From Jiella sonneratiae (lineage in GTDB: Bacteria; Pseudomonadota; Alphaproteobacteria; Rhizobiales; Rhizobiaceae): a DNA stretch of 64,000 nucleotides. The position numbers were made by a program, and so were the translations under genes. Below are positions 1-18,027 of this stretch, one piece after another; within the stretch, counting starts at the first letter, position 1; the number at the start of each line of letters is the position of its first letter. The stretch is taken from positions 124,001-188,000 of the forward strand of contig NZ_JAFMPY010000006.1 in assembly GCF_017353515.1 (NCBI RefSeq), written 5' to 3'. The notes below the pieces were generated by a model. The model was not told the DNA's origin. It did not search any database and saw only the letters and a program-made list of their open reading frames with translations.

Positions 1-789
1 TTCGGACCGGAGATCTTTCGCGCCGAGGAGATCACGCTGGCGTCGAGCCGCGGCGGCCTTGCCGTCGATCACGTGTCGTTTTCGCTGCGGGCCGGCGAGA
101 TCCTCGGCATCTACGGCCTGATGGGCGCCGGTCGCTCCGAACTTCTCGAATGCATCATCGGCGGCGTGACGCATTATGGCGGCCGCCTCTTCGTCGAGGG
201 AAAGCCGCTCGCCGAGCGGAGCGTCTCGGGACGGATCGCCCGGGGCATCGCCCTCATCCCCGAAAATCGCAAGGAGGACGGTCTCGTCCAGATCCTCTCG
301 ATCCGGGAGAACATGACGCTGTCGAGCCTCAAGGCTTTCGCGACCGGCATCCATCTCTCCCTGAAGCGTGAGGCGCTGAGCGTCGCCGAGTTCGTCAGGC
401 GGATGACGGTCAAGGTCGCCTCGACCGAGCACGAGGTCTCGTCGCTGTCCGGGGGCAACCAGCAGAAGGTCGTCATCGCCAAGGCTCTGATGACGAAGCC
501 GAAGATCCTGTTGATGGACGAGCCGTCCCGGGGCATCGACATCGGCGCCAAGGCGGAGGTCTTCCGGGTGATGCGCAGGCTCGCCGCCGAGGGCCTCGGC
601 ATCGTCTTCGTCACCTCCGATCTCGACGAGGTGATGGCGCTTTCGGACCGGATCATCGTGATGTCGAACGGGCGCGTCACCGGCGCGTTCGACCGCGCCG
701 AGGCAACCGAAACCGCTCTCGTCGAAGCCTCCAGCCTCGGCCACGGGCCGGATGCCGGGCATGCCGGCCGTTTCAGGGAAGCATCGTGA
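1..789 (+). CDS. Sugar ABC transporter ATP-binding protein, RbsA type (5' partial)
   Basis: The reading frame is open from the first base, so only the last 262 residues are present. They correspond to the second nucleotide-binding domain of a two-domain sugar ATPase (RbsA/XylG/MglA family). Visible motifs are a Walker A-like loop GLMGAGRSE near residue 40, with Arg in place of the usual Lys (normal for the second domain of this family), the signature LSGGNQQK near 150, and Walker B ILLMDEPSRGID. It would power import of a monosaccharide with the permease that follows; the TGA stop overlaps that gene's ATG by one base. The periplasmic binding protein must lie upstream of the window. From the neighbours the sugar is probably D-apiose, which is inference only. 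Confidence 0.93.
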   Translation, partial: FGPEIFRAEEITLASSRGGLAVDHVSFSLRAGEILGIYGLMGAGRSELLECIIGGVTHYGGRLFVEGKPLAERSVSGRIARGIALIPENRKEDGLVQILSIRENMTLSSLKAFATGIHLSLKREALSVAEFVRRMTVKVASTEHEVSSLSGGNQQKVVIAKALMTKPKILLMDEPSRGIDIGAKAEVFRVMRRLAAEGLGIVFVTSDLDEVMALSDRIIVMSNGRVTGAFDRAEATETALVEASSLGHGPDAGHAGRFREAS

Positions 790-1859
790 TGTCCGAACAG
801 ACCCTCGCCCGACCGGCGCATCAAGGCTTCGACCTGAATGCCGCGCTGCTCGTGCTTCTCAAGGCGCGCACCTTCATCGCGCTGATCCTGGTCTTCGCCT
901 TCTTCGCCTTCGCCGCCCCGAACTTCCTGTCGGTGGCGAACCTGGTGATCATGTCGAAGCACGTCGCGCTCAATGCCTTCCTCGCGATCGGCATGACCTT
1001 CGTCATCGTCTCGGGCGGCATCGACCTTTCCGTCGGCTCGATCGTCGGGCTGTGCGGCATGGTCGCCGGGTGGCTGATCCTCCACGGCATCGATCTCGGC
1101 CTCGGTTTCACCATCGAGTTCAACACGTTCGAGATCTGCTTCCTGGTCGTTCTGGTGGGAATCGCCGTCGGCGCCGTCAACGCCTTCCTGATCACCCGGC
1201 TCAACGTCGCGCCGTTCATCGCCACGCTCGGCACGCTCTATGTCGCGCGGGGAACCGCGATGCTCTCGTCGAATGGCGAGACCTTCCCCAATCTCAACGG
1301 CAAGGCCGCCTACGGCTCCGACACCTTCCGCCTGATCGGGGCGGGAGACTTCCTCGGCGTGCCGATCTCGATCTGGATGCTGATCGTGGTCGGACTGGCC
1401 GCCGCCTACATCGCCCGCCGCACGCCGCTGGGGCGCTACATCTACGCCGTCGGCGGCAACGAGAAGGCGGCCGGCCTCTCGGGCGTCAGGGTCAACCGGG
1501 TCAAATACTTCGTCTACATGTTCTCCGGCTTCTGCGCGGCGCTGGTCGGCATCATCATCGCCTCGCAGCTCGTCGCCTCGCATCCGGCGACGGGCGAGAC
1601 CTTCGAGCTCAACGCCATCGCCGCGGCGGTCCTCGGCGGCACCTCGATGTCCGGCGGACGCGGGCGGATCGCCGGCACCATCGTCGGCGCTTTCGTCATC
1701 GGCATCCTCTCGGACGGGCTGGTGATGATGGGCGTTTCGGCCTTCTGGCAGACGGTGATCAAGGGCGTCGTCATCATCGCCGCCGTGGTGATCGACCAGG
1801 CCCAGCAGCGCTTCGAGAGCCGCCTGGCGCTGCAGGCCCAGGCCGCACTCGGCAAATAG
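789..1859 (+). CDS. Sugar ABC transporter permease, RbsC type
   Basis: A 356-residue membrane protein of the RbsC/XylH branch of sugar ABC permeases. Many hydrophobic segments are visible, along with the family stretches MTFVIVSGGIDLSVGSIVG (about residues 75-95) and AVLGGTSMSGGRGRIAGT (about 280-297). The ATG at 789 is chosen because it overlaps the stop of the upstream ATPase gene (TGATG), an arrangement typical of translational coupling; an in-frame GTG lies one codon earlier. It works with the ATPase in the inner membrane. Substrate cannot be read from the sequence, but the next two genes point to a pentose such as D-apiose. Confidence 0.93.
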   Translation: MSEQTLARPAHQGFDLNAALLVLLKARTFIALILVFAFFAFAAPNFLSVANLVIMSKHVALNAFLAIGMTFVIVSGGIDLSVGSIVGLCGMVAGWLILHGIDLGLGFTIEFNTFEICFLVVLVGIAVGAVNAFLITRLNVAPFIATLGTLYVARGTAMLSSNGETFPNLNGKAAYGSDTFRLIGAGDFLGVPISIWMLIVVGLAAAYIARRTPLGRYIYAVGGNEKAAGLSGVRVNRVKYFVYMFSGFCAALVGIIIASQLVASHPATGETFELNAIAAAVLGGTSMSGGRGRIAGTIVGAFVIGILSDGLVMMGVSAFWQTVIKGVVIIAAVVIDQAQQRFESRLALQAQAALGK

Positions 1860-1872: not shown

Positions 1873-2892
1873 ATGAAAGGCGCACTGATCGGCTGCGGCT
1901 TCTTCGCGCAGAACCAGCTCCACGCCTGGGCCGAGATCCCCGGCGCCGGGATCGTCGCCCTTTGCGACACCGACGAGGCGAAGCTGGCGGAAACCGCGCG
2001 GCGCTTCGGCATCGAGCGGACCTACCGCGACGCCGCCGCGATGCTCGAGGCCGAGACGCTCGACTTCGTCGACATCGCGACGACGGTCCCGAGCCATCGG
2101 CCGCTGGTCGAACTGGCGGCGAGAATGCGCCTCCACGTCATCTGCCAGAAGCCCTTCGCCGAAACGATGGAAGACGCCCGCGCCATGGTCGCCGCCGTCG
2201 AGGGCGCCGGCCGCGTCCTGATGGTGCACGAGAATTTCCGCTGGCAGTCGGCGGTGCGCCGGGCGATCGACACGGTGCGCGGCGGGGCGATCGGCGAGCC
2301 GTTCTTCGGGCGGGTCTCCTTTCGCTCCGGCTACGACGTCTTTTCCGGCCAGCCCTATCTCGCCGAGGGCGAGCGCTTCATCATCGAGGATCTCGGCATC
2401 CACATCCTCGACATCGCCCGGGCCTTCTTCGGCGACGTCGACCGGCTGGCCGCGACGACGCGGCGGGTCAACCCGAAGATCCGCGGCGAGGACGTGGCGA
2501 CGATGCTCCTCTCCCATGCCGGCGGCGTCACCAGCGTCGTCGACTGCTCCTATGCGACGAAGCGCGTGCCGGACACCTTCCCCCAGTCGCTCGTCGAGAT
2601 CGACGGCACCGACGGAACGCTGCGGCTCGACGCCGGCTATCGCCTGACGATCCAGGCGAGGGGCGAGGAGAGCGTCGTCGACGTTTCGCCGCCTCTGCTT
2701 TCCTGGGCCGAGAGGCCCTGGCACAACATCCAGGAGAGCGTCCGGACGATCCAGCAGCATTTCGTCGATTGTATCGGCGCTGGCCGCGAGCCGGAGACCT
2801 CCGGCCGGGACAATCTGAAGACGCTGGCGCTCGTCGAGGCGGCCTATCGCTCGGCGGCGACCGGCGAAACGGTCCGGCCGGGGGATCTGTGA
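1873..2892 (+). CDS. apsD: Gfo/Idh/MocA dehydrogenase, probable D-apiose dehydrogenase (ApsD-like)
   Basis: A 339-residue NAD(P)-dependent sugar oxidoreductase. The N-terminal Rossmann fold shows GCGFFAQNQL at residues 7-16. The usual EKP motif reads QKP (CQKPFAE, about residue 95), and EDLGIHILDIAR near 175 carries the catalytic His of this family. GAGGG precedes the ATG by about seven bases. In the known D-apiose pathways a member of this family oxidises D-apiose to apionolactone. The assignment to that step rests on context: a sugar importer before it, a D-apionate-lactonase-like gene overlapping its 3' end, and the remaining pathway enzymes nearby. The family assignment is firm; the substrate is inferred. 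Confidence 0.75.
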   Translation: MKGALIGCGFFAQNQLHAWAEIPGAGIVALCDTDEAKLAETARRFGIERTYRDAAAMLEAETLDFVDIATTVPSHRPLVELAARMRLHVICQKPFAETMEDARAMVAAVEGAGRVLMVHENFRWQSAVRRAIDTVRGGAIGEPFFGRVSFRSGYDVFSGQPYLAEGERFIIEDLGIHILDIARAFFGDVDRLAATTRRVNPKIRGEDVATMLLSHAGGVTSVVDCSYATKRVPDTFPQSLVEIDGTDGTLRLDAGYRLTIQARGEESVVDVSPPLLSWAERPWHNIQESVRTIQQHFVDCIGAGREPETSGRDNLKTLALVEAAYRSAATGETVRPGDL

Positions 2893-4643
2893 GCGGGCTC
2901 GTCGCCCTCTACGGCACCGAGGAGCCGGTGGAGGAGCGCCGGCCGTATCGGCTCGGGCCGGTCTCCTTCGAGCTTTGCGGCGGTGCCGTCCGGTATCTTG
3001 CGGTCGGCGGCAGCGAAGTCGTCCGCCGTATCGCCTTCCTCGCCCGCGACCGTGACTGGGGAACGCTGGCTCCGACGCTCGGGCCGGTCGAGGAGAAAGC
3101 GGACGGCGCGAGCTTGCGCCTTGCCATCCCGATGCGGTTCCAAAACGGCGCCGCGCGGCTCGACACGCGCCTGACGCTGACGCTTCGCCCGGACGGTCTC
3201 GACTTCGAGGCCGAGGCGGTTGCGCGAGGCGTCTTCGAGACCAACCGCGCCGGCTTCACGATCCTGCATCCGATCGCCGGCCAGGCCGGGTCGCCGGTCA
3301 CGGTCGTTCACGGTGCCGGCGGGACCGAAGAGGGGACGTTTCCGGAAACCATCGCGCCGTGGCAGCCCTTCAAGGACATCGCCGCGATCACCCATCACGT
3401 CGGCGTCCTCTCCTGCACCTGCCGGCTGGAAGGCGACGTCTTCGAGATGGAGGATCAGCGCCAGTGGGGCGATGCGTCCTTCAAGACCTACAACCGGCCG
3501 CTGGCGCTGCCCTGGCCCTACCGGATCGACGACGGCGCAACGATCCGCCAGGCGGTGCGGGTGTCTTGGCGAGAGAGAAAGCCGGCGCAAGCCTCGGTTC
3601 GCCCGACCCGGACGGTTGCGGCTTGCCGCTTTCCCGAAACCGCGATCCTCCTGACGCCGGAGCAAGCGCGCCGGGCGCTCGGGCGGCTCGACGACATCCG
3701 GGCGATCGGGCCGCAGCGGCTGCTCTGCCATGTCGACGCCTCGCGCGGCGATCTTGCCGGACAGTTTGCGGCCTTCGCCGATCTGCAGCGCGCCGCGCCG
3801 GCCTATCTCTACGACATCGAGATGATCGCGGATTTCGGCGACGATCCCGCTGCCGATCCGGCCGGGCCGCTCGACGCCGCTGCCGGTGCGATGCGGGAGA
3901 CGGGCCTGCGGCCGGCAAGCGTCATGGTCTGCCCCTCGGTCGACCGCCAGTCGACCCCGCCCGGCTCGACATGGCCGGCCTGCCCGCCGCTCGATCTGAT
4001 CCATGCGGCGGCGCGTGCGGCATTCGCCGCGCCGTTGATGGGCGGCGGCATGGCGAGCTTCTTTCCCGAACTCAATCGCAAGCGCCCGCCGGTCGGGCGC
4101 CTCGATTTCGTTTCCCATTCGCTCTGTCCGATCGTCCACGACGCCGGCGACCGCGCGGTGATCGAGACGCTCGAGGCGGTGCCGCACATCACCCGCTCCG
4201 CCCGCGCGATCATCGGCGACCGGCCGTATCGGATCGGCCCGTCGACCATCGCCATGCGCCAGAACCCCTATGGCGCGAGGACCATCCCGAACCCCGAGGG
4301 CCGCCGCGTCGCCATGGCCGACGACGATCCGCGCCATCGCGCGCGCTTCGGCGCGGCCTATGCGCTCGGACTGGCGGCAGCTCTGGCCCCGGCCAAAATC
4401 GCCGTCTGGACGCCCGCCGAGCTTTACGGGCCTCGCGGCATCGTCCGCGATGACGGAGGCTGGCATCCGTTGACCCATGTCGTCGCGGCACTGGCCGCGT
4501 GTGCAAGCTCGCCGGTGGCGGAAGCGACGATCGACGACGGCCTCGCCAGGCTGGTGCTCGGCAAGCGCCGCTTCACGGCCAACTTGACCGACGCTCCGCT
4601 TCGTGGATTGGAACCCTATGGCTGGTCCGGGGAGGGAACCTAG
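2889..4643 (+). CDS. apnL: Probable D-apionate lactonase (ApnL-like), three-domain protein
   Basis: A 584-residue cytoplasmic protein starting at a GTG that overlaps the dehydrogenase stop (GTGA). The N-terminal ~220 residues look like a beta-sandwich of the kind in sugar-binding enzymes and contain the family-specific stretch EMEDQRQWGDASFKTYNRP near residue 190. The middle (~240-500) is alpha/beta and fits the TIM-barrel domain described for D-apionate lactonases, followed by a short C-terminal domain. The family opens the lactone made by the upstream dehydrogenase to give D-apionate. A much longer open frame upstream of 2889 only shadows the dehydrogenase gene. I recognise the family by its motif and neighbours, not by a search. 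Confidence 0.72.
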   Translation: MSGLVALYGTEEPVEERRPYRLGPVSFELCGGAVRYLAVGGSEVVRRIAFLARDRDWGTLAPTLGPVEEKADGASLRLAIPMRFQNGAARLDTRLTLTLRPDGLDFEAEAVARGVFETNRAGFTILHPIAGQAGSPVTVVHGAGGTEEGTFPETIAPWQPFKDIAAITHHVGVLSCTCRLEGDVFEMEDQRQWGDASFKTYNRPLALPWPYRIDDGATIRQAVRVSWRERKPAQASVRPTRTVAACRFPETAILLTPEQARRALGRLDDIRAIGPQRLLCHVDASRGDLAGQFAAFADLQRAAPAYLYDIEMIADFGDDPAADPAGPLDAAAGAMRETGLRPASVMVCPSVDRQSTPPGSTWPACPPLDLIHAAARAAFAAPLMGGGMASFFPELNRKRPPVGRLDFVSHSLCPIVHDAGDRAVIETLEAVPHITRSARAIIGDRPYRIGPSTIAMRQNPYGARTIPNPEGRRVAMADDDPRHRARFGAAYALGLAAALAPAKIAVWTPAELYGPRGIVRDDGGWHPLTHVVAALAACASSPVAEATIDDGLARLVLGKRRFTANLTDAPLRGLEPYGWSGEGT

Positions 4644-4695: not shown

Positions 4696-5436
4696 GTGGC
4701 ATCGCAACTCTCCGCAGGTCCTGAAGGGGACAAGATCGTCCGCCGGAAACTGTCCGAGCAGGTGCTCGACCGGCTGCGCGAGATGATCCGCGGTGGCGAA
4801 TTGCGGCCCGGCGACGCGATGCCCTCGGAACGCACCTTGATGGAGCGCTTCGGGGTCGGCCGCCCGGCGGTCCGCGAGGCGCTGCAGTCGCTGCACAATT
4901 CCGGCCTGATCACTATCAATCACGGCGAGCGCAGCCGGGTGAACGAGATCACCGCCGGCACCGTGCTCGACCGTTCCGACGAGATCGCCCGGCTGCTGCT
5001 CGACGCGGTGCCGTCCAATCTCGAACATCTGAAACAGGCGCGGCGGATGTTCGAACTCGGCATCGTGCGGATCGCCGCCGAGAAGGCGAGCGACGACGAC
5101 GTTGCCGAGCTGCGAGGCCTCGTCGCCCGCCAGCGCGCGCTTCTCGGACGGGACGCGCTGCCTTTCATCGAGACCGACATGGCCTTCCATGCGCGGATCG
5201 CCGAGATCGTCGGAAACCCGATCATCGCCGCCGTCTCCGTGGCGATGCTGCGCTGGCTGTTCGAGTATCACACCGCACTCCTCCACTGGTCGGGCAAGGA
5301 GGAGGTGACGCTCACCGAGCACGAGCGCATCGTCGATCTGATCGAGGCGCATGACGCCGAGGGCGCCGTCGCCATGATGCAGACCCACCTCGACCGCTCG
5401 CTGGAGCTTTACGCCCGCAGCGAGGGACGGGGCTGA
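4696..5436 (+). CDS. GntR-family regulator with FCD domain
   Basis: A 246-residue FadR-subfamily regulator. A winged helix at about residues 15-80 (PSERTLMERFGVGRPAVREA) is followed by an all-helical FCD ligand-binding domain whose metal-ligand pattern is visible (D...FH near 160, then EHERIVD and QTHL). The GTG start is supported by GAGGAAA seven bases upstream. It ends the ABC/dehydrogenase/lactonase run, 52 bases after the lactonase, and is the likely local repressor. A candidate operator shared by the kinase/oxidoisomerase promoter and the RuBisCO-like promoter is described separately. Which of the two GntR regulators in the island binds it is not known. Confidence 0.88.
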   Translation: MASQLSAGPEGDKIVRRKLSEQVLDRLREMIRGGELRPGDAMPSERTLMERFGVGRPAVREALQSLHNSGLITINHGERSRVNEITAGTVLDRSDEIARLLLDAVPSNLEHLKQARRMFELGIVRIAAEKASDDDVAELRGLVARQRALLGRDALPFIETDMAFHARIAEIVGNPIIAAVSVAMLRWLFEYHTALLHWSGKEEVTLTEHERIVDLIEAHDAEGAVAMMQTHLDRSLELYARSEGRG

Positions 5437-6975: not shown

Positions 6976-8343
6976 CTACCTTGCCCCGCCGCCATCGCGG
7001 ATCCAGCCGAAGAAATCCTCCGAGCCCATCTGGCCGCCCTTCAGGGCGATCTGCAGGCCGTCGTGGGAGCCGTTGCCGTAGGCGGTGCAGAGCGACGCGC
7101 CGGGGATGGTCGGGCTGAGCGCGGTGAGCGCGTCGAGCCTCAGCTGGCGCATGCCGTGGCCGGAAGTGTCGCCGCCGGAGATCACGGCGCGGCGGATGCC
7201 GGTTTCCGTGAGGATGCGGTCGAGGATGCGGCCGAGCGCCTCGCCGATGCGCCGGTTGGCGGTCTCCGGCGCCATGCCGCTTCGGCCGAGCGCCGCCCGG
7301 AAGGCGGAAACCGCTTCGCCTTCGGTGCCCATCGCCGAATGGACGAGAGGGCTTTGCCCCCGTGCGGCCGCCTCGCAGGCGCGGGCGACGACACGGCTTT
7401 CCTCGGCCGCGAGCGCGGCGTCGCTGCCGCAGACGGCGGCGGCGTCGAAGGCGGTGAGGGCGAAGCCGTTCGCCCCCGCCCAGCGCAGCTGCGCCGCGGT
7501 CATCGGCGAGACCGAGCCGGAAATCACCGCGATCCGGTCGACCTTCCCGGCGGAGGGGGTCGGTGCGGGCGGATCGATCAGGCCGGTCGCCTGCCAATGG
7601 CGCAGCAGGGCATATTCGACACCCTGGCTGCCGACCACGAAGCCGAGCCTGTCGCGGTTTTCCCAGATCAACCGGCCGGCGGCCCGCTCGCTTTTCTCCT
7701 CCATCGAATCGAGCGACAGGATCCGCGCGCCGGCGCCGATCGCCGCCTCAAGGCGGGACTGCGGGCCGGACCACAGCGCCTCGAGGTCGATCAGCGCTGA
7801 GGGAAGGGCCGTCTGCGCGGCGAGGTGCTTCAGGAGATCGGCCTCGTTCATCGGCGTCACCGGGTGGTTCGCCATCACCGGATGCCGGTCGAGGCGAAAG
7901 ACGCCGTCATAGGTGCCCGCGAAGAGATGGCCGAAGGCCTGGTAGCGGCGCATCTGCGGCGCGGCCGTGAGGAGCGGCACGGCGCTTGCCGGACGAATCG
8001 TCAGCCCGATCTCGATCGCCTTGCCGATCGACCCGACGTCCGGCGCCGAATCGAAGGTCGAGCAGACCTTGTAGTGCAAGAGCGGCGCGCCGAGGCTGTC
8101 GAGCCAGCGCAGCGGTTCGCGGAGATTGTCCTCCATCCACGTGGGCCCGTGGCTGCGCGCCGTCGAGGCGATCCCGAAGGCCCGGCATCCGGCAAAGCGC
8201 TCCAGCGTCGCGGCTTCCGGAATGCCGGTGAACAGCACCGCATCGGCGCCGGCAAAGGCCAGAGCCTCCATCACTGCCGCTGAGCCGGTGAAGTCGTCGC
8301 CATACCATGTGACGAGCGGCGCAATTTCAGCTTTTCCGGTCAT
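6976..8343 (-). CDS. oiaK: DUF1537 four-carbon acid sugar kinase, probable 3-oxo-isoapionate kinase (OiaK-like)
   Basis: A 455-residue kinase of the DUF1537 family. The N-terminal substrate domain carries YGDDFTGS at residues 13-20. The C-terminal nucleotide domain carries VISGGDTSGHG near 390 and LKGGQMGSEDFF near the end. The ATG at 8343 is preferred because GAGGT lies five bases before it; an in-frame ATG four codons upstream lacks this. Members phosphorylate four-carbon acid sugars, and in the D-apionate route one makes 3-oxo-isoapionate 4-phosphate. It is divergent from the ApnO-like gene with a 100-bp shared promoter region, supporting that role. Substrate is inferred. Confidence 0.78.
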   Translation of the reverse strand: MTGKAEIAPLVTWYGDDFTGSAAVMEALAFAGADAVLFTGIPEAATLERFAGCRAFGIASTARSHGPTWMEDNLREPLRWLDSLGAPLLHYKVCSTFDSAPDVGSIGKAIEIGLTIRPASAVPLLTAAPQMRRYQAFGHLFAGTYDGVFRLDRHPVMANHPVTPMNEADLLKHLAAQTALPSALIDLEALWSGPQSRLEAAIGAGARILSLDSMEEKSERAAGRLIWENRDRLGFVVGSQGVEYALLRHWQATGLIDPPAPTPSAGKVDRIAVISGSVSPMTAAQLRWAGANGFALTAFDAAAVCGSDAALAAEESRVVARACEAAARGQSPLVHSAMGTEGEAVSAFRAALGRSGMAPETANRRIGEALGRILDRILTETGIRRAVISGGDTSGHGMRQLRLDALTALSPTIPGASLCTAYGNGSHDGLQIALKGGQMGSEDFFGWIRDGGGAR

Positions 8344-8443: not shown

Positions 8444-9271
8444 ATGACGAGCATTGCGCTGTTCGGGGCCGGCGGGAAGATGGGCGTCAGGCTGTCGCGC
8501 AATCTGGCGAAGACGGATTTCGACGTCCGCCATGTCGAGGTGATGCCCGAGGGGCAGGCGCGGCTGAAGGAAGCCGTGGGCGCCGCCTGCGTCGCGCCGG
8601 ACGCGGCGATCGAAGGTGCGGACGTCGTCGTCCTCGCAGTCCCGGACACGGCGATCGGCAAGGTCGCCGGAATGGTGGTGCCGAAGGTCGCGCCGGGAAC
8701 GATCGTCGTCATCCTCGACGCCGCCGCGCCCTTTGCGGGCCATCTGCCGGAACGCGCCGACATCAGCTATTTCGTCACCCATCCCTGCCACCCGACGATC
8801 TTCACCAAGGAGACCACCGAGGCGGGCCGCAACGACCATTTCGGCGGCATCGCCGCGGAGCAGGCGGTGGTCAACGCCCTGATGCAGGGGCCGGAGGAGC
8901 ATTACGCGATCGGCGACAGCGTCGCACGGGCGATCTACGCGCCGGTCAACCGGACGCACCGGGTCAGCGTCGAGCAGATGGCCTATCTGGAACCAGGCCT
9001 CTCGGAGACCGTCTGCGCCTCGCTGCTCGTCGTCATGCGCGAGGCGATGGAGGAGGTCATCAAGACCGGCGTTTCGCGCGATTGCGCCCGCGACTTCCTG
9101 CTCGGCCACATGAACATTCTCGGCGCGGTGATCTTCGAGGAGGTCGACGGGGTGTTCTCCGACGCCTGCAACAAGGCGATCGAGTTCGGCAAGCCGATGC
9201 TGATGCGCGACGACTGGAAAAAGGTCTTCGAGCCCGACGAGATCGCGGCGAGCATCCGCCGCATCACCTGA
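8444..9271 (+). CDS. apnO: Probable D-apionate oxidoisomerase (ApnO-like)
   Basis: A 275-residue NAD-dependent enzyme with an N-terminal Rossmann fold (FGAGGKMGVRLSRNL, residues 6-20), a conserved THPCHPTIF stretch near 113-121, and an all-helical C-terminal half as in phosphogluconate-dehydrogenase relatives. The ATG at 8444 is chosen for the strong GGGAGGGGAAG just upstream; the frame extends further back but only antisense to the kinase. In the apionate pathways a protein of this kind oxidises D-apionate with a carbon shift to 3-oxo-isoapionate, the substrate of the divergent kinase. The match is by family appearance and context. Confidence 0.75.
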   Translation: MTSIALFGAGGKMGVRLSRNLAKTDFDVRHVEVMPEGQARLKEAVGAACVAPDAAIEGADVVVLAVPDTAIGKVAGMVVPKVAPGTIVVILDAAAPFAGHLPERADISYFVTHPCHPTIFTKETTEAGRNDHFGGIAAEQAVVNALMQGPEEHYAIGDSVARAIYAPVNRTHRVSVEQMAYLEPGLSETVCASLLVVMREAMEEVIKTGVSRDCARDFLLGHMNILGAVIFEEVDGVFSDACNKAIEFGKPMLMRDDWKKVFEPDEIAASIRRIT

Positions 9272-9342: not shown

Positions 9343-9354
9343 AAAAGCTGGCCT

Positions 9355-10815: not shown

Positions 10816-10919
10816 CGTTCCCTCCCATGAAAGCTTTCGGCGACCGGTCGCGTCGAGGACGTGCGCCGTCGTGAATTGCGCTTCGCGTCCCCGCGTCGTC
10901 CCCGCGCGGTGCGATCCGC

Positions 10920-11636
10920 TCAGTCGGCGGCATCGAGATGCGCCTCGATCCGCTCGCGGCCGGCCTCGATATGGCCCCGCATGGCCGTTTCCGCCCGGGC
11001 CGGATCGCGCGCGCCGATGGCGGCGAGGATGTCGATGTGTTCCTCGATGACCGCCTGGGCGACGTCGGAGTGATAGCGCAGTCGGAAGATGTGCATCTGG
11101 GTGAACAGCCGCCCGAGCGCGTCCTCGATCAACTCGTTGCCGCAGGCGGCGGCGATGGCGCTGTGAAAGCGGCTGTCGAGGACGACGAGTTTCGCCCGGT
11201 GGCCGGTGATGTCCTCGGCGGCCATGGCGCGCATCTCCTCGGCGATCGAACCGAGTTCGGCGAGCGCTTCGGGCGATGCCAGCCGCGCTGCCCCGGCGGC
11301 GCTTGCCGGCTCGATGAGGCAGCGGAGCTCGAAGATCTTGGCGAACTGCTCGGGCGAGGGGAGCGGCGCGACGCTCCAGCCGGTGAACTGCTTCTTGACG
11401 ACGAGCCCTTCCGCCTCGAGCCGGATCAGGGCTGCCCGGGTCGGCGTCTGCGACACGCCGAAGCGGCGCGCGAGGCCGTCGACGGACAGTCGCGCACCGG
11501 CGGGGATGCGCAGCGCGATCAGGTCGTCGACGAGCCGCTGGTAGACCTCGTCGCCGAGCGACGGGCGCTGCAGGATCGCATCCCGCGGAGAGCGGTCCTC
11601 CGGTCGGGTGCCGAAGACGGCGTCTTTCGCAATCAA
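10920..11636 (-). CDS. Second GntR-family regulator with FCD domain
   Basis: A 238-residue FadR/FCD-type regulator: winged helix at about 10-70 (VDGLARRFGVSQTPTRAAL) and a helical FCD domain behind it. I place the start at a TTG (11636) rather than the upstream ATG at 11765. AAGGA lies seven bases before the TTG. A good promoter (TTTACA at 11700-11695, 17 bases, TATTCG at 11677-11672) would start the message near 11665, downstream of the ATG. It faces the TRAP transporter genes and precedes the aldehyde dehydrogenase, so it probably controls both. Confidence 0.85.
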   Translation of the reverse strand: MIAKDAVFGTRPEDRSPRDAILQRPSLGDEVYQRLVDDLIALRIPAGARLSVDGLARRFGVSQTPTRAALIRLEAEGLVVKKQFTGWSVAPLPSPEQFAKIFELRCLIEPASAAGAARLASPEALAELGSIAEEMRAMAAEDITGHRAKLVVLDSRFHSAIAAACGNELIEDALGRLFTQMHIFRLRYHSDVAQAVIEEHIDILAAIGARDPARAETAMRGHIEAGRERIEAHLDAAD

Positions 11637-11646
11637 AGGGGCATCC

Positions 11647-11700
11647 TTGACCGTTCCGAAAACGTCGCTTACGAATATCGTATCGGATATCTGGTGTAAA
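11647..11700. promoter_or_regulatory. Overlapping divergent promoters with a palindrome (GntR/TRAP intergenic)
   Basis: Plus strand: TTGACC (11647) with TACGAA 17 bases on would drive the TRAP genes. Minus strand: TTTACA (11700-11695) with TATTCG 17 bases on would drive the regulator. ATATCGTATCGGATAT (11675-11690), a near-perfect inverted repeat (13 of 16 positions), sits between them and is a likely operator for the GntR protein. A second small repeat, GTGT-AA-ACAC, follows near 11694. Confidence 0.5.
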
Positions 11701-11779: not shown

Positions 11780-12772
11780 ATGAGCTACAAGTCGATGCTC
11801 GCCGGCCTGATGCTGGCGACGACGGCCCTCGCGACCACTGGCCTCGCGACCACGATCGCCGATGCGAAGGAGATGAACTTCGCCATCGTGACCCCGCCGG
11901 ACGGCCACTACGGCCAGGGCGCCAAGGCGTTCGCCGAGAAGATGAAGGAACTGTCGGGCGGCGACTTCGTCGTCAACGTCAAGGCCGGCGGTTCGCTCGG
12001 CGGCGAGCGCGAGCTCCTCGAGGGCGAGCAGATCGGCACCATCGAATTGGCGATGACTTCGACGGGGCCCGTCGGCTCCTTCGTGCCGGAAATCTACGCT
12101 CTCGATTTCCCCTTCCTGTTCAAGGACTATGCGAGCGCCCGCAAGATCCTCGACGGCGAGATCGGCGACGAGCTTCTGTCCAAGTTCGAGGACAAGGGGA
12201 TGATCGGGCTCGCCTGGTCGGAGAACGGCTTCCGCCACATCACCAATTCCGTCCATCCGATCAAGACCCCGGCGGATCTCCAGGGCCTGAAGCTCCGCAC
12301 CATGGAGAACCAGGTCCACATCGACGCCTTCAAGGAGCTCGGCGCCTCGCCGACGCCGATGAGCTGGACCGAGGTTCTCACCTCGCTCCAGCAGGGGACG
12401 ATCGACGGTCAGGAAAACCCGATCCCGATCATCGTCTCGAACAACATGTGGGACATGCAGAAATACGTGACGCTCACCGGCCACGTCTATTCGCCGGCGG
12501 TGATCACCATGTCGAAGATCCACTGGGACCAGCTCTCCGACGAGGAAAAGGGCTGGATCAGAGAGGCTTCCAAGGCCGCCGTCGAAGCGACGCGCGCGGT
12601 CGTCGACCAGACCGAGGCAAACGGCGTCAAGACCATGCGCGAGCATGGCATGGAGGTGATCGAGGACGTCGACAAGGCGGCCTTCCAGGACGCGGTCGAG
12701 CCGACATACGAGCGCTACGGCAAGGAATATGGCGAGCAGATGATCCAGAGGATCCGCGACGCCCAGAAATAG
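11780..12772 (+). CDS. dctP: TRAP transporter solute-binding protein, DctP family
   Basis: A 330-residue periplasmic binding protein. The ATG at 11780 follows GGGAGGAAA and opens a signal peptide ending near residue 28 (ATTIADAKE). Family marks are GSLGGERELLEGEQIG, LRTMENQVHI, with the Arg that binds the ligand carboxylate, and LQQGTIDGQENP near 210-220. It delivers an organic acid to the DctQM permease encoded next. In this setting the ligand is probably a sugar acid (apionate, or a tetronate), which cannot be told from sequence. The gap to DctQ holds two hairpins, listed separately. Confidence 0.93.
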   Translation: MSYKSMLAGLMLATTALATTGLATTIADAKEMNFAIVTPPDGHYGQGAKAFAEKMKELSGGDFVVNVKAGGSLGGERELLEGEQIGTIELAMTSTGPVGSFVPEIYALDFPFLFKDYASARKILDGEIGDELLSKFEDKGMIGLAWSENGFRHITNSVHPIKTPADLQGLKLRTMENQVHIDAFKELGASPTPMSWTEVLTSLQQGTIDGQENPIPIIVSNNMWDMQKYVTLTGHVYSPAVITMSKIHWDQLSDEEKGWIREASKAAVEATRAVVDQTEANGVKTMREHGMEVIEDVDKAAFQDAVEPTYERYGKEYGEQMIQRIRDAQK

Positions 12773-12883: not shown

Positions 12884-13396
12884 ATGCGGAAGATCGCCGT
12901 CAATGCCGCCGAGCGGCTCATCGCGCTCACCCATAATCTCGCGGCCGTGCTTCTGGCGGTGGCTGCGCTGCTGGTGTTCTGGCAGGTCGTCACCCGCTTC
13001 CTCCTCGGCGATGCCGCGGCGTGGTCGGAGGTGCTGGCGCGCGGCGTCGTCATTTGGATGGTGTTTCTCGTCGCCGGTGCCGGGTTTCGCCTCAGCGCGA
13101 TGATCCCGCTCGAATTCGTCCGCAGCGTCCTGCCGGACACTCTCCAGCGGGTCGTCGGTTTCGTCGTGATGGCGCTGATCCTCGTCTTCCTGGGCGTGCT
13201 GATCTGGTTCGGCACGGCGATGGCGATCCGCGTCTCGACCCAGCAAGTGGCGATGCTCGGCGTACCGATCTCCTGGTTCTATGCCGCGATCCCGCTCGGT
13301 GCGGCCTTGGCGGTGCCGGGCGTCCTCCTCGAATTCTTCCGGCCGATCGACGAGCTTCGCGACGCGGCGGCCGCCCGGGACGAGACGTTCGAATGA
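12884..13396 (+). CDS. dctQ: TRAP transporter small permease, DctQ family
   Basis: A 170-residue membrane protein with four predicted transmembrane segments (about 17-37, 50-70, 90-112, 130-152) and the DctQ-type stretch VFWQVVTRFLLGDAAAWSEV. It pairs with the large DctM subunit, whose ATG overlaps this gene's stop (ATGA), indicating coupled translation in the inner membrane complex. Confidence 0.92.
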   Translation: MRKIAVNAAERLIALTHNLAAVLLAVAALLVFWQVVTRFLLGDAAAWSEVLARGVVIWMVFLVAGAGFRLSAMIPLEFVRSVLPDTLQRVVGFVVMALILVFLGVLIWFGTAMAIRVSTQQVAMLGVPISWFYAAIPLGAALAVPGVLLEFFRPIDELRDAAAARDETFE

Positions 13397-14667
13397 ACGC
13401 CGGCCTCGTCAGCGCACTGATCTTCTTCTTCGTCCTCTCGGTCCCGGTCGGCGTGGCGATCGGGCTTGCCGCCATCGTCGGCGTCGGCTTCTTCTCGCCG
13501 CTGCCGCTGCTCGTCATCCCGCAGAAGATCTTCACCTCGATCGACAGCTTCCCGCTGCTCGCCGTGCCGTTCTTCATTCTCGCCGGCAATCTGATGACCC
13601 ATGGCGGGGTGTCGCGCCGGCTCGTCGGCTTCGCCAAGTCGATGGTCGGCGGGGTGCAGGGCGGCCTCGCCTCGACCTGCGTCGTCACCTGCATGATCTT
13701 CGCGGCGATTTCCGGCTCGTCGGTGGCGACCACCTTCGCGATCGGGGCGATCCTGGTGCCGGCGATGGCGCGGCACAACTATCCCCTGCCGATGGCTGCG
13801 ACGATCCAGGCGACCTCCGCCGAACTCGGCGTCATCATCCCGCCGTCGGTGCCGATGATCATCTTCGGCGTCGCCACGGAGACCTCCGTCACCCAGCTGT
13901 TCATGGCCGGGATCGGACCCGGCCTCCTCGTCGCCGGCGCGCTCGTCGTGATGACGCAGGTCTGGTGCCGGATGAAGGGCATCGGCAAGCAGGACGGCGA
14001 CGAGAGCCAGCCGATCCTGAAGAGCTTCGTCGACGCGTTCTGGGCGTTGATGCTGCCCGTCATCATTCTCGGCGGAATCTATGGCGGCGTCTTCACCCCC
14101 ACCGAGGCGGCGGCTGTGTCGGTGGTCTATGCGCTGATCGTCGGGCTCTTCGTCTATCGCGAGATGACCGTCGCCGACCTGCCGCAGATCTTCCGCTCGG
14201 CGGCGGTCTCGACGGGGGCGATCATGCTTATCATCGCGACGGCCGGCCTGTTTTCCTTCCTGATCAGCCTTTCCGGCTTGCCCAACCTCATCGGCGGCTG
14301 GGCGAAGGCGAATTTCGACAGCGCCGTCGGCTTCCTGCTGTTCGTCAACCTGCTGCTGCTCGTCGTCGGCATGTTCGTCGAGACCTCGGCGGCGATCCTG
14401 GTGCTGGCGCCGATCCTGACGCCGATCGCCACCGGATTCGGCGTCGATCCGGTGCATTTCGGCATCATCGTCATCGTCAACCTCGCCCTCGGCATGATCA
14501 CCCCGCCGCTCGGCGTCAATCTCTTCGCGGCGGCGCAGGTGGCGAGGATCCCGGTGCAGCGGATGTTCGCCTCGCTCGTCATCCCCGTGACGGTGGTCTT
14601 CGCGACGCTCCTTCTCATCACCTACGTGCCGCCGATCTCGCTGTTCCTGCGCGATCTGTTCAACTGA
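13393..14667 (+). CDS. dctM: TRAP transporter large permease, DctM family
   Basis: A 424-residue polytopic protein that carries the ion-coupled transport path of the TRAP system. Typical DctM stretches include SGSSVATTFAIGAILVPAM (about 99-117), IIPPSVPMIIFGV and LGMITPPLGVNLF near 370. The start overlaps the DctQ stop by four bases. The three TRAP genes and the two dehydrogenase genes that follow on the same strand at short spacing look like one operon. Confidence 0.93.
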   Translation: MNAGLVSALIFFFVLSVPVGVAIGLAAIVGVGFFSPLPLLVIPQKIFTSIDSFPLLAVPFFILAGNLMTHGGVSRRLVGFAKSMVGGVQGGLASTCVVTCMIFAAISGSSVATTFAIGAILVPAMARHNYPLPMAATIQATSAELGVIIPPSVPMIIFGVATETSVTQLFMAGIGPGLLVAGALVVMTQVWCRMKGIGKQDGDESQPILKSFVDAFWALMLPVIILGGIYGGVFTPTEAAAVSVVYALIVGLFVYREMTVADLPQIFRSAAVSTGAIMLIIATAGLFSFLISLSGLPNLIGGWAKANFDSAVGFLLFVNLLLLVVGMFVETSAAILVLAPILTPIATGFGVDPVHFGIIVIVNLALGMITPPLGVNLFAAAQVARIPVQRMFASLVIPVTVVFATLLLITYVPPISLFLRDLFN

Positions 14668-14711: not shown

Positions 14712-15821
14712 ATGAGCGGACATCCAAAAGCTACATATCGCATCGCGACGATCGAAGGCGACGGCATCGGGCCGGAGGTCACCCGGTCGGCGATGGCGGT
14801 GCTTGCGGGAGCCTGCGGCGCAGGCCGGCTCGACTTCGTGATGGTGCCGGGGGGCGTCGGCCACTACCAGGCGTCCGGCGAGGTTCTGCCCAAGGATACG
14901 CTGAAGGCCTGTCGCGAGCTCGACGCCACCCTGCACGGCGCCGCCGGCCTGCCGGGTGTGACCTATCCGGACGGGACGGAGGTCGGCAACGAGCTGCATC
15001 TGCAGCTGCGCTTCAAGCTCGATCTTTACGCCAATGTCCGCCCGATCAAGCTTCTCAAAGGCGTGCGCTCGCCGCTGCGGGATTTCGATGCCGCCGGCGG
15101 CAGAAGCATCGACTACGTGATCGTGCGCGAAAACACCGAGGGGCTCTATGCGAGCCGCGGGGCAGGCGTGCTTCTGCGCGGCGAGTTCGCGTCCGACAGC
15201 CTCGTCGTCACCCGCAAGGGGACGAGCCGCGTCGCCCGCTTCGCCTTCGATCTCGCCGAGAAGCGCGGCGGAGCGCTGCGCGATGGCAGGCGCCGCATGA
15301 CGGTGTGCGACAAGGCGAACATTCTGAGGAGCTATGCCTTCTTCCGCTCAATCTGCGACGAGGTGCATGGCGAGTTTCCCGACGTCGAGATCGACTACGC
15401 CTATGCCGATGCGATCACCGTCCACCTCCTCAAGCGGCCGGACTTCTACGACGTCATCGTCGCCGAAAACATGTTCGGCGACATCATCTCCGACCTCGGG
15501 GCGGCGACCGTGGGCGGCATGGGCATCTCGCCTTCCGGTGAGATCGGCGACGCGCACGGCCTCTTCCAGGGCGCCCACGGCTCGGCGCCGGACATCGCCG
15601 GCCAGGATCTCGCAAGCCCCGTCGCGGCGATCCTCTCCGGCGTCATGATGCTGCGCTGGCTGGCGGACCGCCACGGCGACGCGGCGCTCGGCGAGGACGC
15701 GAGCCGGATCGAACGGGCCGTCGAGACCGTGCTCGAGGCCGGCGCGTTCGTTCCGACCGATCTCGGGGGCAAAGCGCGCTGCAGCGAGATGACACAGGCG
15801 ATCCTCGGCGCGCTCGCCTGA
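14712..15821 (+). CDS. Isocitrate/isopropylmalate dehydrogenase-family enzyme (tartrate dehydrogenase-like)
   Basis: A 369-residue beta-decarboxylating dehydrogenase. It begins with IEGDGIGPEV (residues 12-21), has VRENTEGLYASRG near 140, the catalytic Lys/Asp region VCDKANILRS and ADAITVHLL, and GDIISDLGAATVGGMG followed by GAHGSAPDIAG near 290. The substrate-specifying loop differs from classic LeuB and Icd, and its position behind a TRAP importer argues for a sugar-acid or malate/tartrate-type substrate. It lies 44 bases after dctM. Whether it belongs to apiose catabolism or to a second pathway cannot be decided from sequence. Confidence 0.85.
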   Translation: MSGHPKATYRIATIEGDGIGPEVTRSAMAVLAGACGAGRLDFVMVPGGVGHYQASGEVLPKDTLKACRELDATLHGAAGLPGVTYPDGTEVGNELHLQLRFKLDLYANVRPIKLLKGVRSPLRDFDAAGGRSIDYVIVRENTEGLYASRGAGVLLRGEFASDSLVVTRKGTSRVARFAFDLAEKRGGALRDGRRRMTVCDKANILRSYAFFRSICDEVHGEFPDVEIDYAYADAITVHLLKRPDFYDVIVAENMFGDIISDLGAATVGGMGISPSGEIGDAHGLFQGAHGSAPDIAGQDLASPVAAILSGVMMLRWLADRHGDAALGEDASRIERAVETVLEAGAFVPTDLGGKARCSEMTQAILGALA

Positions 15822-15844: not shown

Positions 15845-16741
15845 ATGAGCAGGAAGATCGGCATCATCGGCGTCGGCATGATGGGCCACGGCATCGCCCG
15901 GAATATCGCGCTCGCCGGCTGGCCTCTGGCCTATCTCGACCACCCGGGCAACCAGCCGGCGGAGGATCTCGACGCAGCCGGCGCGACCCGCATCGACGCG
16001 CTGCCGGATCTCGTCGCGCAAAGCGACGTCGTCGTCCTCGTCGTCACCGGAAGCAGGGAGATCGAACGGATCGTCCTTGCCGACGAAGCCTTCATTCGGG
16101 CCCTGCGCCCCGGCACCATCGTCGTCGACTGCTCGACCGGCATTCCCGCGGTCACCCGGCGGGCCGCAGCGCGGGTCGAGGCAGCGGGAGGCCGCTTCTG
16201 CGACGCCGCGATGACCCGCACGCCGAAGGAGGCGGAGGCGGGGCGCCTCAACCTTCTGATCGGCGGCGACGAGAAGACGGTCGCGGAGCTGACGCCGCTG
16301 TTTGAGCTGTTTTCGGAGAACCGCTTTCATGCCGGGCCGGTCGGCGCCGGGCAGACGCTGAAGCTGATCCACAATTTCGTCTCGCTCGGCAGCGTCGCGC
16401 TGATCGGCGAGGCCGCGGCCTGCGCCGCCGAAAACGGCATTGCGGCGGAGATCCTCGTCGATTGCCTGAGGCGCGGCGGTGGCCACGGAGCCGCGCTCGA
16501 CCGCGTCGCGCCCTTCCTGCTCGAAGGCGAGACCGCCCAGATGCGCTTCACCAACGCCAACGCCTTCAAGGACGTCGGCTATTACGACGAACTCGCGGGT
16601 GCGACGGGCACGCGGCGGGACATCGCGAAGGGCGTTCTGGCGGCTCTCGGCTGGCTGAACGACAACGGCTTCGGCGCGGCGATGGCGCCCGAGGCGGCAG
16701 AGGCGTTCCGGCAGAAAAATGATCGCCGCGAAGGTCCCTAA
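15845..16741 (+). CDS. 3-hydroxyisobutyrate dehydrogenase-family oxidoreductase
   Basis: A 298-residue beta-hydroxyacid dehydrogenase. The Rossmann motif GVGMMGHGIARN is at residues 10-21, and the catalytic Lys sits in GAGQTLKLIHNF near 174. The substrate loop reads DAAMTRTPKEAEAG instead of the usual D-A-P-V-S-G-G pattern, so the substrate is probably not a standard one. It starts 24 bases after the isopropylmalate-dehydrogenase-like gene and closes the TRAP operon. Its TAA overlaps the stop codon of the convergent RuBisCO-like gene by two bases. Confidence 0.87.
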   Translation: MSRKIGIIGVGMMGHGIARNIALAGWPLAYLDHPGNQPAEDLDAAGATRIDALPDLVAQSDVVVLVVTGSREIERIVLADEAFIRALRPGTIVVDCSTGIPAVTRRAAARVEAAGGRFCDAAMTRTPKEAEAGRLNLLIGGDEKTVAELTPLFELFSENRFHAGPVGAGQTLKLIHNFVSLGSVALIGEAAACAAENGIAAEILVDCLRRGGGHGAALDRVAPFLLEGETAQMRFTNANAFKDVGYYDELAGATGTRRDIAKGVLAALGWLNDNGFGAAMAPEAAEAFRQKNDRREGP

Positions 16742-18027
16742 CGAAACGTCTCCAGGGCGCCTTTCAGCGCCGGACGGCTCTCTGCGTATTCGGCGAGGGG
16801 CGTTCCGGACATCGCCGCCTCCCAGGCTTCGCGCATGCTGGCGACGCCGCCGGCCGGGCCTGCCGGATGCGCCATGATGCCGCCGCCGGCGGCATGGATG
16901 AGATCGGCCGACCCCAGCCGCGCGAAGGTCTCCGGCGCCTGGCGTGCCGTCTGGCCGGACGAGAACACCGGCATGATGATGCACGGTTTGTCGTCGAACA
17001 TCGGCGTCAGGCAGGCGCGCGCCGCCGCAATGACGCTGTCGTCGTCCTCCGAGAACTTGTTGCTGAGGCCGTTCACATGCATGTGGTCGCAGCCGACCAG
17101 CCGCCAGATCTTCTGCCAGGCGGTGTAGGACCAGCCGAGCAGCGGATGGCGCGACAGGTAGCCCCAGCCGTTGCGGTGGGCATGGATCGGCAGTTCGCTG
17201 TGACGGGCGAATTCGATCATGCCGACGAGACCGACGGAGTTGAGGCTCGCCATCACGCAGGTGCCGCCGAGCTCGCGGACGAGATCGTGGCGCCGGCGCA
17301 TCTCGTCGAGATCGCCCGTCAGATTGAAGGCGAACATCACCTTCCTGCCGCTGCGCTCGGCGTGCCGCTCGATGACCTCCATCACGGCGCGGGCGCGCGC
17401 CTCGAAGGGACAGCCGGGACCGTCCGACTGGAGTTCGTCGTCCTTGATGAAGTCGATGCCGGCGCCGGCGAGCGTATCCACCGCCTCGGCGGTGGCTTCC
17501 GGCGTCAGGCCGATGCTCGGCTTGATGATCGTCCCGATCAGCGGCCGGCCTTCGACGCCGGCGAGCCGGCGGGTGCCTTCGACCCCGAATTGCGGCCCCG
17601 GGTAGGCGTCGGCGAAGGCCCCCGGCAGACGGATGTCGAGAAGGCGCAGGCCGGACACCTGCTTTAGTTCGAAGAGATTGCCGGCGACCGTGGCGAGAAG
17701 GTTCGGCAGCGACGGGCCGATATTGGCGAGCGGCCAGGAGATGGTGATTTTCGCCCGGTTCCAGCGACCCCCGATCCGCGGTTCGGCGGCGCCCGGAAGC
17801 GACGGGCGGTCGGAGGGGGCCAGATTCTCGATAGCCGCGACGGTCGCCGCCGCACGTTCTTTGAGCTCGGGCGTCTCGCCGGGGACCGGCAGGAAGGTCC
17901 CGCTCGACTGCTCCCCGGCGATCGCCGCGACCGCTCTCTCCACAATATCCGGCGTTTCCAGCAGGTAGTCGGCCTCGATGCGATCGACCGAGCGACGGCT
18001 GGACGCGACGCGATCCTCAGATGACAT
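16738..18027 (-). CDS. RuBisCO-like protein, probable 3-oxo-isoapionate-4-phosphate processing enzyme (OiaX/OiaT-like)
   Basis: A 429-residue form-IV RuBisCO-like protein. Compared with RuBisCO it keeps the first active-site Lys in GTIIKPSIGL (about 165-174), the carbamate Lys and metal ligands in FIKDDE, HAHR, H and K in HVNGLSNK, and the phosphate-binding SSG and GGGIMAHP. The second Lys of the KPK loop is Ser and the His after HAHR is lost, so CO2 fixation is unlikely. In D-apiose pathways such proteins either decarboxylate 3-oxo-isoapionate 4-phosphate or split it to 3-phosphoglycerate and glycolate. No erythrulose-phosphate isomerases lie in the window, which slightly favours the second reaction. 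Confidence 0.8.
   Translation of the reverse strand: MSSEDRVASSRRSVDRIEADYLLETPDIVERAVAAIAGEQSSGTFLPVPGETPELKERAAATVAAIENLAPSDRPSLPGAAEPRIGGRWNRAKITISWPLANIGPSLPNLLATVAGNLFELKQVSGLRLLDIRLPGAFADAYPGPQFGVEGTRRLAGVEGRPLIGTIIKPSIGLTPEATAEAVDTLAGAGIDFIKDDELQSDGPGCPFEARARAVMEVIERHAERSGRKVMFAFNLTGDLDEMRRRHDLVRELGGTCVMASLNSVGLVGMIEFARHSELPIHAHRNGWGYLSRHPLLGWSYTAWQKIWRLVGCDHMHVNGLSNKFSEDDDSVIAAARACLTPMFDDKPCIIMPVFSSGQTARQAPETFARLGSADLIHAAGGGIMAHPAGPAGGVASMREAWEAAMSGTPLAEYAESRPALKGALETFR

Follow-up and report, generated by a model that had tools for sequence, protein, structure and literature searches.

The window analysed here is a 64,000-nucleotide stretch of Jiella sonneratiae DNA (contig NZ_JAFMPY010000006.1, positions 124,001 to 188,000), whose first 18,027 nucleotides carry a gene island that includes a RuBisCO-like protein (RLP). 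The original prediction for this stretch had listed an ATP-binding cassette (ABC) importer, a Gfo/Idh dehydrogenase, ApnL-like and ApnO-like proteins, a DUF1537 kinase, an RLP, a tripartite ATP-independent periplasmic (TRAP) transporter and three further dehydrogenases, and profile scans of the genome (5.15 Mb in 76 contigs) with NCBIfam and Pfam found every one of these genes within positions 1-18027. The ABC importer is present but cut at the window edge, with its binding protein and a DUF2291 lipoprotein just upstream; the island starts about 2.4 kb upstream of the window and ends at 18,027, with yebC beyond the RLP gene. Judging from sequence, we think it fairly probable that the island serves D-apiose utilisation by a route of the transcarboxylase/hydrolase (OiaT) kind, with the TRAP system feeding a second point of entry. 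Its genes are listed below, with predicted start codons chosen by hand.

C60:121565-122509, upstream of the window (stretch L003): ribose-type solute-binding protein (RbsB)
Upstream of the window, the pair with the binding protein spanning C60:121565-123228: DUF2291 lipoprotein (165 bits)
1..789, + strand: C-terminal part of a ribose-type ABC ATPase (NCBIfam RbsA/XylG-type), with its 5' end at C60:123230, outside the window
786..1859, + strand: ABC permease, RbsC type (NF007067, 273 bits; cut-off 398)
1873..2892, + strand: Gfo/Idh/MocA dehydrogenase, candidate D-apiose dehydrogenase or ApsD (PF01408, PF22725, PF02894; relatives in apiose-type clusters)
2889..4643, + strand: ApnL-like, putative D-apionate lactonase (NF049900, 629 bits; cut-off 750)
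4696..5436, + strand: GntR/FCD regulator, NanR subfamily (NF003011, 303 bits; cut-off 260; PF00392/PF07729)
5515-6180, - strand: hypothetical gene (no Pfam match)
6288-6872: Maa-type acetyltransferase (Pfam)
6976..8283, - strand: DUF1537 kinase, OiaK-like (PF07005/PF17042; start uncertain, 8283 to 8373)
8444..9271, + strand: ApnO-like, putative D-apionate oxidoisomerase with PGDH_C domain (PF16896, 237 bits; 5t57, 409 bits)
9355..10830, - strand: aldehyde dehydrogenase of the second module (PF00171, 524 bits)
10920..11687, - strand: another GntR/FCD regulator, transcribed divergently to the TRAP genes (PF07729, PF00392)
11780..12772, + strand: TRAP solute-binding protein DctP (PF03480; nearest solved proteins 4nq8, 4pdd, 4pdh and 4p9k/4pak)
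12884..13396, + strand: TRAP small permease DctQ (PF04290)
13393..14667, + strand: TRAP large permease DctM (PF06808, 386 bits)
14712..15821, + strand: isocitrate/isopropylmalate dehydrogenase family protein (IMDH-like; PF00180; TIGR02089, 250 bits; cut-off 470.4)
15845..16741, + strand: beta-hydroxyacid dehydrogenase of the HIBADH/tartronate semialdehyde reductase superfamily (HIBADH-like; PF03446; no NCBIfam cut-off reached)
16738..18027, - strand: RLP of the non-OiaX group, candidate OiaT (PF00016, 224 bits; NF042437, 450 bits)

The grouping looks like more than chance, because the genome's only PF16896 gene (ApnO-like) and the only one of its two PF00016 genes that is not a RuBisCO large-subunit gene (the RLP) both lie here, and because among the 133 RLPs of the same group compared below, the window's included, 127 have the kinase and 80 ApnO next to them. 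Relatives of the NanR-type regulator also adjoin RLP genes in other genomes; the hypothetical gene and the Maa-type acetyltransferase match no apiose step. The RuBisCO large-subunit gene lies elsewhere in the genome (C33:6081-7004, L001; 449 bits), and the host may fix CO2.

Group and active site of the RuBisCO-like protein

The original prediction had named the OiaX and OiaT families as comparisons for the RLP, and for the first the outcome was clear: the protein is not OiaX. It scores 450 bits against the OiaX model (NF042437), under the cut-off of 700, and across 397 Hyphomicrobiales genomes, of which 72 have a match to this model at E 1e-60, the scores leave a wide gap, with 25 at 758-791 bits, further matches at 364-488 and five at 212-216. 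For a broader comparison we used a non-random set of RLP loci, consisting of the 80 nearest of at least 557 relatives and several chosen sets: 14 of 348 plasmid records picked by hand, 20 of the 25 OiaX matches, 40 of the 55 lower-scoring matches (364-488 bits) other than the window's own, 20 stretches picked for DctP or IMDH matches, and one Variovorax plasmid picked for its IMDH. These gave 162 loci with an RLP match, reduced to 159 by removing L027 and L056 (short or broken frame) and L130 (identical). Neighbours were labelled by tblastn within 12 kb using identity floors that we set ourselves (for example 45% for DerI and 40% for LerI), and because contigs are short, absences are to be read as lower bounds.

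In a FastTree phylogeny of the 159 RLPs, a single clade with support 1.0 unites the 26 OiaX-type proteins; the window RLP falls among the other 133. At the equivalents of RuBisCO E60, N123 and H327 (spinach numbering; E39, N117 and H317 in the window RLP, and E62, N125 and H328 in the genome's own RuBisCO), all 26 OiaX proteins have D, G and Q, and all 133 others, the window's included, have E, N and H. Residues such as these have roles in carboxylation and cleavage in RuBisCO. The equivalents of K175, K201, D203, E204, H294, R295 and K334 are common to both groups, and the window RLP retains all ten RuBisCO active-site equivalents that were checked. The neighbourhoods separate in the same way: LerI adjoins 12 and DerI 8 of the 26 OiaX genes, and neither exceeds its floor beside any of the 133 others, a single DerI relative beside a non-OiaX RLP (L133) being 36% identical and thus under the 45% floor. 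Neither gene is labelled within the island, and the best LerI match anywhere in the genome is 36% identical. On score, position outside the clade, E/N/H residues and the lack of LerI/DerI neighbours, OiaX identity was rejected. The closest named relative among the matches listed is the RLP of Jiella endophytica (88%).

An excerpt of PMC6302742 attributes decarboxylation and transcarboxylation/hydrolysis of 3-oxo-isoapionate 4-phosphate to the RLPs of A. radiobacter K84 and X. autotrophicus; read in listed order, the first reaction would belong to K84 and the second to X. autotrophicus. The OiaX model is over its cut-off in none of 119 genomes from the family of G077, which has 13 matches at 412-460 bits and 12 at 206-226; G077 is an Ancylobacter, since the DNA of its locus is 90-93% identical to that of A. 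rudongensis, and the family, which we take as that of Xanthobacter, includes a Bradyrhizobium-like genome. Making 3-phosphoglycerate and glycolate requires the carboxylate to be shifted and the chain then cut, so OiaT would need the residues for carboxylation and C-C cleavage; a plain decarboxylase would need neither step, and retention of E/N/H therefore fits the OiaT kind. From the clade, the score gap, the residues, the neighbours and the family lacking OiaX, we infer that the window RLP is of the OiaT kind, on a route to 3-phosphoglycerate and glycolate; in function it would seem to stand close to RuBisCO.

For the 133 RLPs of this group, NCBIfam offers either no model or weak OiaX scores, and they stand cleanly apart from OiaX by tree, neighbours and three residues. 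If they are OiaT, they would be a catabolic enzyme still performing RuBisCO's carboxylation and cleavage chemistry, and the three residues would predict which RLPs merely decarboxylate; the difference would then open a question of RuBisCO evolution to direct test. We did not meet this residue rule in the literature searched; subscription papers, above all Carter et al. 2018, may contain parts of it.

Several other arrangements were seen among the RLP loci. Genome G105 carries RLPs of both kinds, OiaX-type and non-OiaX, some 15 kb from each other (L112, C1:93009; L151, C1:76675), each with an ApnO relative nearby. Two haloarchaeal plasmids, from Haloarcula (L009) and Natronosalvus (L017), have an RLP-kinase pair with an RLP 53-55% identical to the window's, the Haloarcula plasmid additionally carrying an ApnO relative (45%) and TRAP genes. 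In 15 of the 133 non-OiaX loci (L010, L013, L014, L062, L070, L140, L141, L144, L146, L147, L152, L154, L156, L157 and L159), the RLP stands with a LacI regulator and a glyoxalase-fold (VOC) protein, mostly with TRAP genes and mostly with a DUF1537 kinase, and with no ApnO label.

The apiose core and its closest relatives

The core of the island is known in kind, and its D-apiose reading is well supported. The lactonase-like protein has ApnL (NF049900) as its only NCBIfam match at E 1e-5, and its 629 bits lie between those of six ApnL relatives (816-936 bits) and two distant ones (308-374) among the eight scored; it retains 141 of the 181 columns invariant in eight ApnL relatives (the six scored over the cut-off, plus L107 and L036, unscored). 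The kinase scores 442 bits against OiaK (NF042436; cut-off 700) and 147 bits against 3-oxo-tetronate kinase (NF043035), which places it much nearer to OiaK. Kinases elsewhere score 469 (OiaX-linked R. phaseoli), 432 (Roseibium) and 577 bits (Ancylobacter) against OiaK, and the cut-off is therefore strict. The ApnO-like protein far exceeds the cut-off (25 bits) of PF16896, a domain that we take as the mark of ApnO, and is predicted to be a D-apionate oxidoisomerase. Among solved structures, the ABC binding protein is most similar to 5ibq and 4ry0 (490 bits each); the entry title of 4ry0 names R. etli RHE_PF00037, and 5ibq is a structure with D-apiose bound. Structure models were poor (mean predicted local distance difference test scores 58.7 and 51.4) with bad superpositions, and the Foldseek lists were used for entry titles alone; for the binding protein, both model and list are of an Inquilinus relative (L033). 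With an ApnL-family lactonase, an OiaK-like kinase, an ApnO-like protein and a 5ibq/4ry0-like binder, the earlier claim of a D-apiose/D-apionate island with an RLP and two transporters is borne out.

Other genomes place similar genes together. Roseibium and Mesorhizobium have an over-cut-off ApnL together with a window-type RLP, and Novosphingobium flavum has a window-type RLP and kinase with a PF13204 apiosidase gene (347 bits) at a distance of 3.4 kb and glycoside hydrolase family 42 (GH42) and rhamnosidase genes in the surroundings. A Croceibacterium plasmid carries the RLP-kinase pair in a stretch with GH127, GH42, GH2 and GH28 genes. No PF13204 apiosidase was found in the J. sonneratiae genome, so the use of plant polymers and the habitat suggested by the original prediction are no more than possible; the family is present in 16 of the 33 genomes or records searched. 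An excerpt of PMC11747546 reports growth on D-apiose for a marine strain of the Rhodobacteraceae in which a set of apiose genes is annotated. In Croceibacterium and Hephaestia (L006, L098), the RLP-kinase pair comes immediately after a gene of the GH127 beta-L-arabinofuranosidase family.

Among known systems, the OiaX cluster of an R. phaseoli plasmid (L015) has in common with the island the NanR regulator, RLP, DUF1537 kinase, PGDH_C ApnO, RbsB, DUF2291, RbsA, RbsC and Gfo/Idh genes, and at the stretch edge one more gene, annotated as hypothetical, begins. The order on that plasmid is OiaX, kinase, two isomerases, PGDH_C, RbsB, DUF2291, RbsA, RbsC and Gfo/Idh. Its RLP, however, is annotated OiaX and is followed by triose-phosphate isomerase-type and RpiB-type isomerase genes (here called LerI and DerI), whereas the island has an RLP of the other group, no isomerase genes nearby, and a TRAP system and three dehydrogenases added. 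A Roseibium aggregatum plasmid (L008) shares ApnL (over cut-off), Gfo/Idh, RbsC, RbsA, DUF2291, RbsB, PGDH_C, RLP (56%) and kinase genes, but the stretch is without TRAP, IMDH-like, HIBADH-like and aldehyde dehydrogenase genes. Ancylobacter (L020) holds a window-type RLP, kinase, ApnO, ApnL and TRAP in one locus. Catabolic genes for tetronates (erythronate/threonate) draw on the same kinase superfamily (DUF1537, OtnK), whereas the kinase of the island resembles OiaK; the OtnK that this genome encodes lies at C4:28508-29740 (584 bits; cut-off 350).

Beside that OtnK lies an ApnL paralog (636 bits, 39% identical to the window's protein), in a stretch (C4:19001-39000, L223) that also holds apparent ribose-type ABC genes, an aldo-keto reductase and a DhaL-like gene. 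This locus possibly encodes a tetrose or tetronolactone route on an apiose-like plan.

The TRAP transporter and the adjoining dehydrogenases

We take the solved proteins nearest to DctP to be binders of the pantoate/erythronate kind. D-apionate, D-erythronate and (R)-pantoate have a common 2,4-dihydroxybutanoate core, so one binding-protein family could serve all three acids, and with DctP nearest to such binders, D-apionate import by the TRAP system is plausible. Excerpts of a review name a pantoate/D-erythronate kind of TRAP binder (PMC5812351), and excerpts of PMC11668362 mention homologues with pantoate or erythronate as ligand. Aceric acid is a further, speculative candidate for the TRAP substrate. 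In the Hyphomicrobiales sample, the eight DctP relatives of highest identity (58-64%) lie 3.6-5.6 kb from an RLP; none of the ten weaker relatives (44-55%) is on a contig bearing an RLP match. Some weaker relatives (G116, G300, G254) stand beside distant HIBADH- and kinase-like genes (24-29%). DctP adjoins 4 of the 26 OiaX genes, three of them (L199-L201) chosen for DctP. In four loci (L119, L199-L201) of one of the two genera that supply the eight closest relatives, TRAP genes stand with ApnO, the kinase and OiaX, with LerI too in three of the four and no ApsD or ApnL labelled in these stretches, an arrangement that is simplest if the TRAP system imports D-apionate. A literature search for apiose together with TRAP transporters found nothing.

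The original prediction had set the TRAP system and the extra dehydrogenases apart as no part of the textbook pathway; they prove to be a recurrent association beside such cores in other, unrelated bacteria and no peculiarity of this genome. The TRAP/aldehyde dehydrogenase/IMDH/HIBADH set occurs, whole or in part, in relatives of Halomonas, in Limnohabitans, in Variovorax and in another Hyphomicrobiales genus. The loci of Litchfieldella, Halomonas and Billgrantia (L088, L090, L092, L095, L097) have all four types next to ApnO, RLP and kinase, and these stretches bear no ApsD, ApnL or ribose-type ABC label. The two Limnohabitans loci (L079, L082) have the four types in line with the core, and in L079 ten genes lie in a row on the same strand, with the aldehyde dehydrogenase at one end and the NanR regulator at the other; several overlap, and no gap is wider than about 150 bases. 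This run suggests substrates of one class for the three dehydrogenases, ApnO and the RLP. Partial sets were found in an Aquabacterium metagenome-assembled genome (L067), in Variovorax (L208, no aldehyde dehydrogenase labelled) and in L153/L202-L204 (no HIBADH over the floor). Relatives of the IMDH-like gene adjoin 17 of the 133 non-OiaX RLPs, the window's included, and 15 of the 17 loci also have a DctP relative of at least 40%; leaving out L202-L204 and L208, which were picked for DctP/IMDH, the count is 13 of 129. Among the bearers of this second module, four groups are separate in the RLP tree, namely the Halomonas group (support 1.0), L153/L202-L204 (1.0), the Limnohabitans pair (0.99) and the window with its Jiella relative (1.0).

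The members are not all orthologous, and the association thus looks assembled more than once, or reshuffled. Against TIGR02089, the tartrate dehydrogenase model (TTC; cut-off 470.4), the corresponding proteins of L090 and L204 score 565 and 534 bits, whereas the window's IMDH-like protein reaches 250, for which reason TTC identity was rejected. The J. sonneratiae genome has three true TTC genes at other loci, and the Jiella relative has one TTC and one window-type IMDH; its extra TTC (L019:8612-9694, 565 bits) lies right beside the RLP, on the side where the window has yebC. In both scored loci, tetronate genes adjoin the TRAP genes (DenD and OtnI in L090, LtnD and OtnK in L204), all over their cut-offs. 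Four aldehyde dehydrogenase relatives at 57-58% (L153, L202-L204) also stand beside an RLP match.

For the dehydrogenases we leave undecided three readings of the sequence evidence: pantoate catabolism alongside the apiose genes, tetronate oxidation via tartrate, or oxidation of D-apionate along the lines of pantoate. The recurrent partners point to a route for branched sugar acids that may not have been described before. We did not meet this recurrent partner set in the literature searched; subscription papers may contain parts of it. One doubtful elaboration is that D-apionate takes two parallel routes, the second starting from TRAP-imported D-apionate, which is shaped like pantoate, and proceeding by oxidation of a CH2OH group to a carboxylate (HIBADH-like enzyme and aldehyde dehydrogenase) and IMDH-like oxidative decarboxylation of 3-C-hydroxymethyl-tartrate to 2-oxotetronate, which tetronate enzymes (OtnK, C4:28508) would finish. 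A plant cell-wall sugar would then be degraded in the style of pantoate, by a module assembled more than once from different subfamilies.

Proposed route and rival explanations

Reactions, ligands and regulation are predictions that we read from the gene content, families, phylogenetic group, active-site residues and recurrent neighbourhood observed. The ABC importer would bring in D-apiose, which the Gfo/Idh enzyme would oxidise to the lactone, and the ApnL-like enzyme would open this to D-apionate; the ApnO-like enzyme would oxidise and rearrange this to 3-oxo-isoapionate, and the DUF1537 kinase would yield the 4-phosphate. The original prediction had ended the pathway at this compound; with the RLP, the route would continue past it. 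The 4-phosphate would be decarboxylated to an enediol, re-carboxylated at the neighbouring carbon and hydrolysed at a C-C bond in RuBisCO-like manner, giving 3-phosphoglycerate and glycolate. The TRAP system would import a (2R)-2,4-dihydroxybutanoate-type acid, most simply D-apionate, entering at ApnO, and the aldehyde dehydrogenase, IMDH-like and HIBADH-like enzymes may act on acids of the same shape as this cargo. The glycolate could be used by the host through GlcDEF-like genes, of which GlcE (290 bits; cut-off 284) and GlcF (470 bits; cut-off 333) lie behind a GlcD-like gene.

The alternative that deserves most attention, although we consider it unlikely, is that the TRAP, HIBADH-like, aldehyde dehydrogenase and IMDH-like genes form a pantoate (pantothenate) catabolic set unrelated to apiose, acting by 4-oxidation of pantoate, oxidation of aldopantoate and oxidative decarboxylation of 3,3-dimethylmalate to 2-oxoisovalerate. 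The enzyme classes fit this chemistry, and a Paracoccus seriniphilus plasmid, where HIBADH (45%), aldehyde dehydrogenase (39%) and IMDH (56%) relatives lie beside a branched-chain keto acid dehydrogenase operon, argues for pantoate, as does the nearness of DctP to binders of the cluster named in the excerpts of PMC5812351 and PMC11668362. However, the Limnohabitans run joins the three dehydrogenases with ApnO, TRAP, RLP and kinase on one strand, the association with an RLP recurs in separate RLP subclades, and L090 and L204 have TTC instead, with tetronate genes next to TRAP. It is improbable that the RLP is an OiaX-like decarboxylase giving L-erythrulose 1-phosphate, with isomerases encoded elsewhere: OiaX is its best NCBIfam match and the seven residues from K175 to K334 are common to both groups, but its score, separate clade and lack of the D/G/Q signature speak against this, as do the absence of LerI/DerI over the floors beside all 133 RLPs of the type and the 36% identity of the genome's best LerI relative. 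We think it very improbable that the island degrades D-hamamelose, with the RLP acting as an oxygenase that yields 3-phosphoglycerate and glycolate, as is reported for a comparable RLP cluster in Ochrobactrum anthropi. An excerpt of PMC8914248, citing Kim et al. 2018, places an Ochrobactrum anthropi RLP amid hamamelose genes with these end products, and the enzyme classes would be similar, yet apionate is the substrate that fits an ApnO-type oxidoisomerase, the nearest structures to the binding protein are 5ibq/4ry0 (R. etli RHE_PF00037), and an apiosidase adjoins a related RLP in Novosphingobium.

Several observations weigh against the preferred reading, a D-apiose island of the OiaT kind with a TRAP-fed entry. 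The "exact" apiose enzyme set of the original prediction fits at the level of families, but the NCBIfam equivalog cut-offs for ApnL, OiaK and OiaX are all missed by the island's proteins, and an ApnL score near 630 leaves the substrate unfixed, given the paralog of 636 bits beside OtnK. The X. autotrophicus OiaT route likewise has an RLP acting on 3-oxo-isoapionate 4-phosphate (PMC6302742, as excerpted), but the link to it is by family and residues, and the excerpt writes no 'respectively' for the order of enzymes and reactions. In the Hyphomicrobiales sample, a genome of the same genus has no RLP match, the eight RLP-near DctP relatives come from two genera, and the nearest relatives of the aldehyde dehydrogenase (65-69%) lie away from RLP matches. 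The IMDH of the scored loci L090 and L204 belongs to another subfamily, TTC, and the GlcD-like protein is under both its cut-offs (530 of 568 and 705 of 897 bits).

Farther along the window, positions 53873-64000 carry flagellar genes for FliF (YscJ_FliF), a MotB-type protein and a FliK-like hook-length control protein, the last being a G+C-rich protein of more than 1549 amino acids whose reading frame is still open at the window end.

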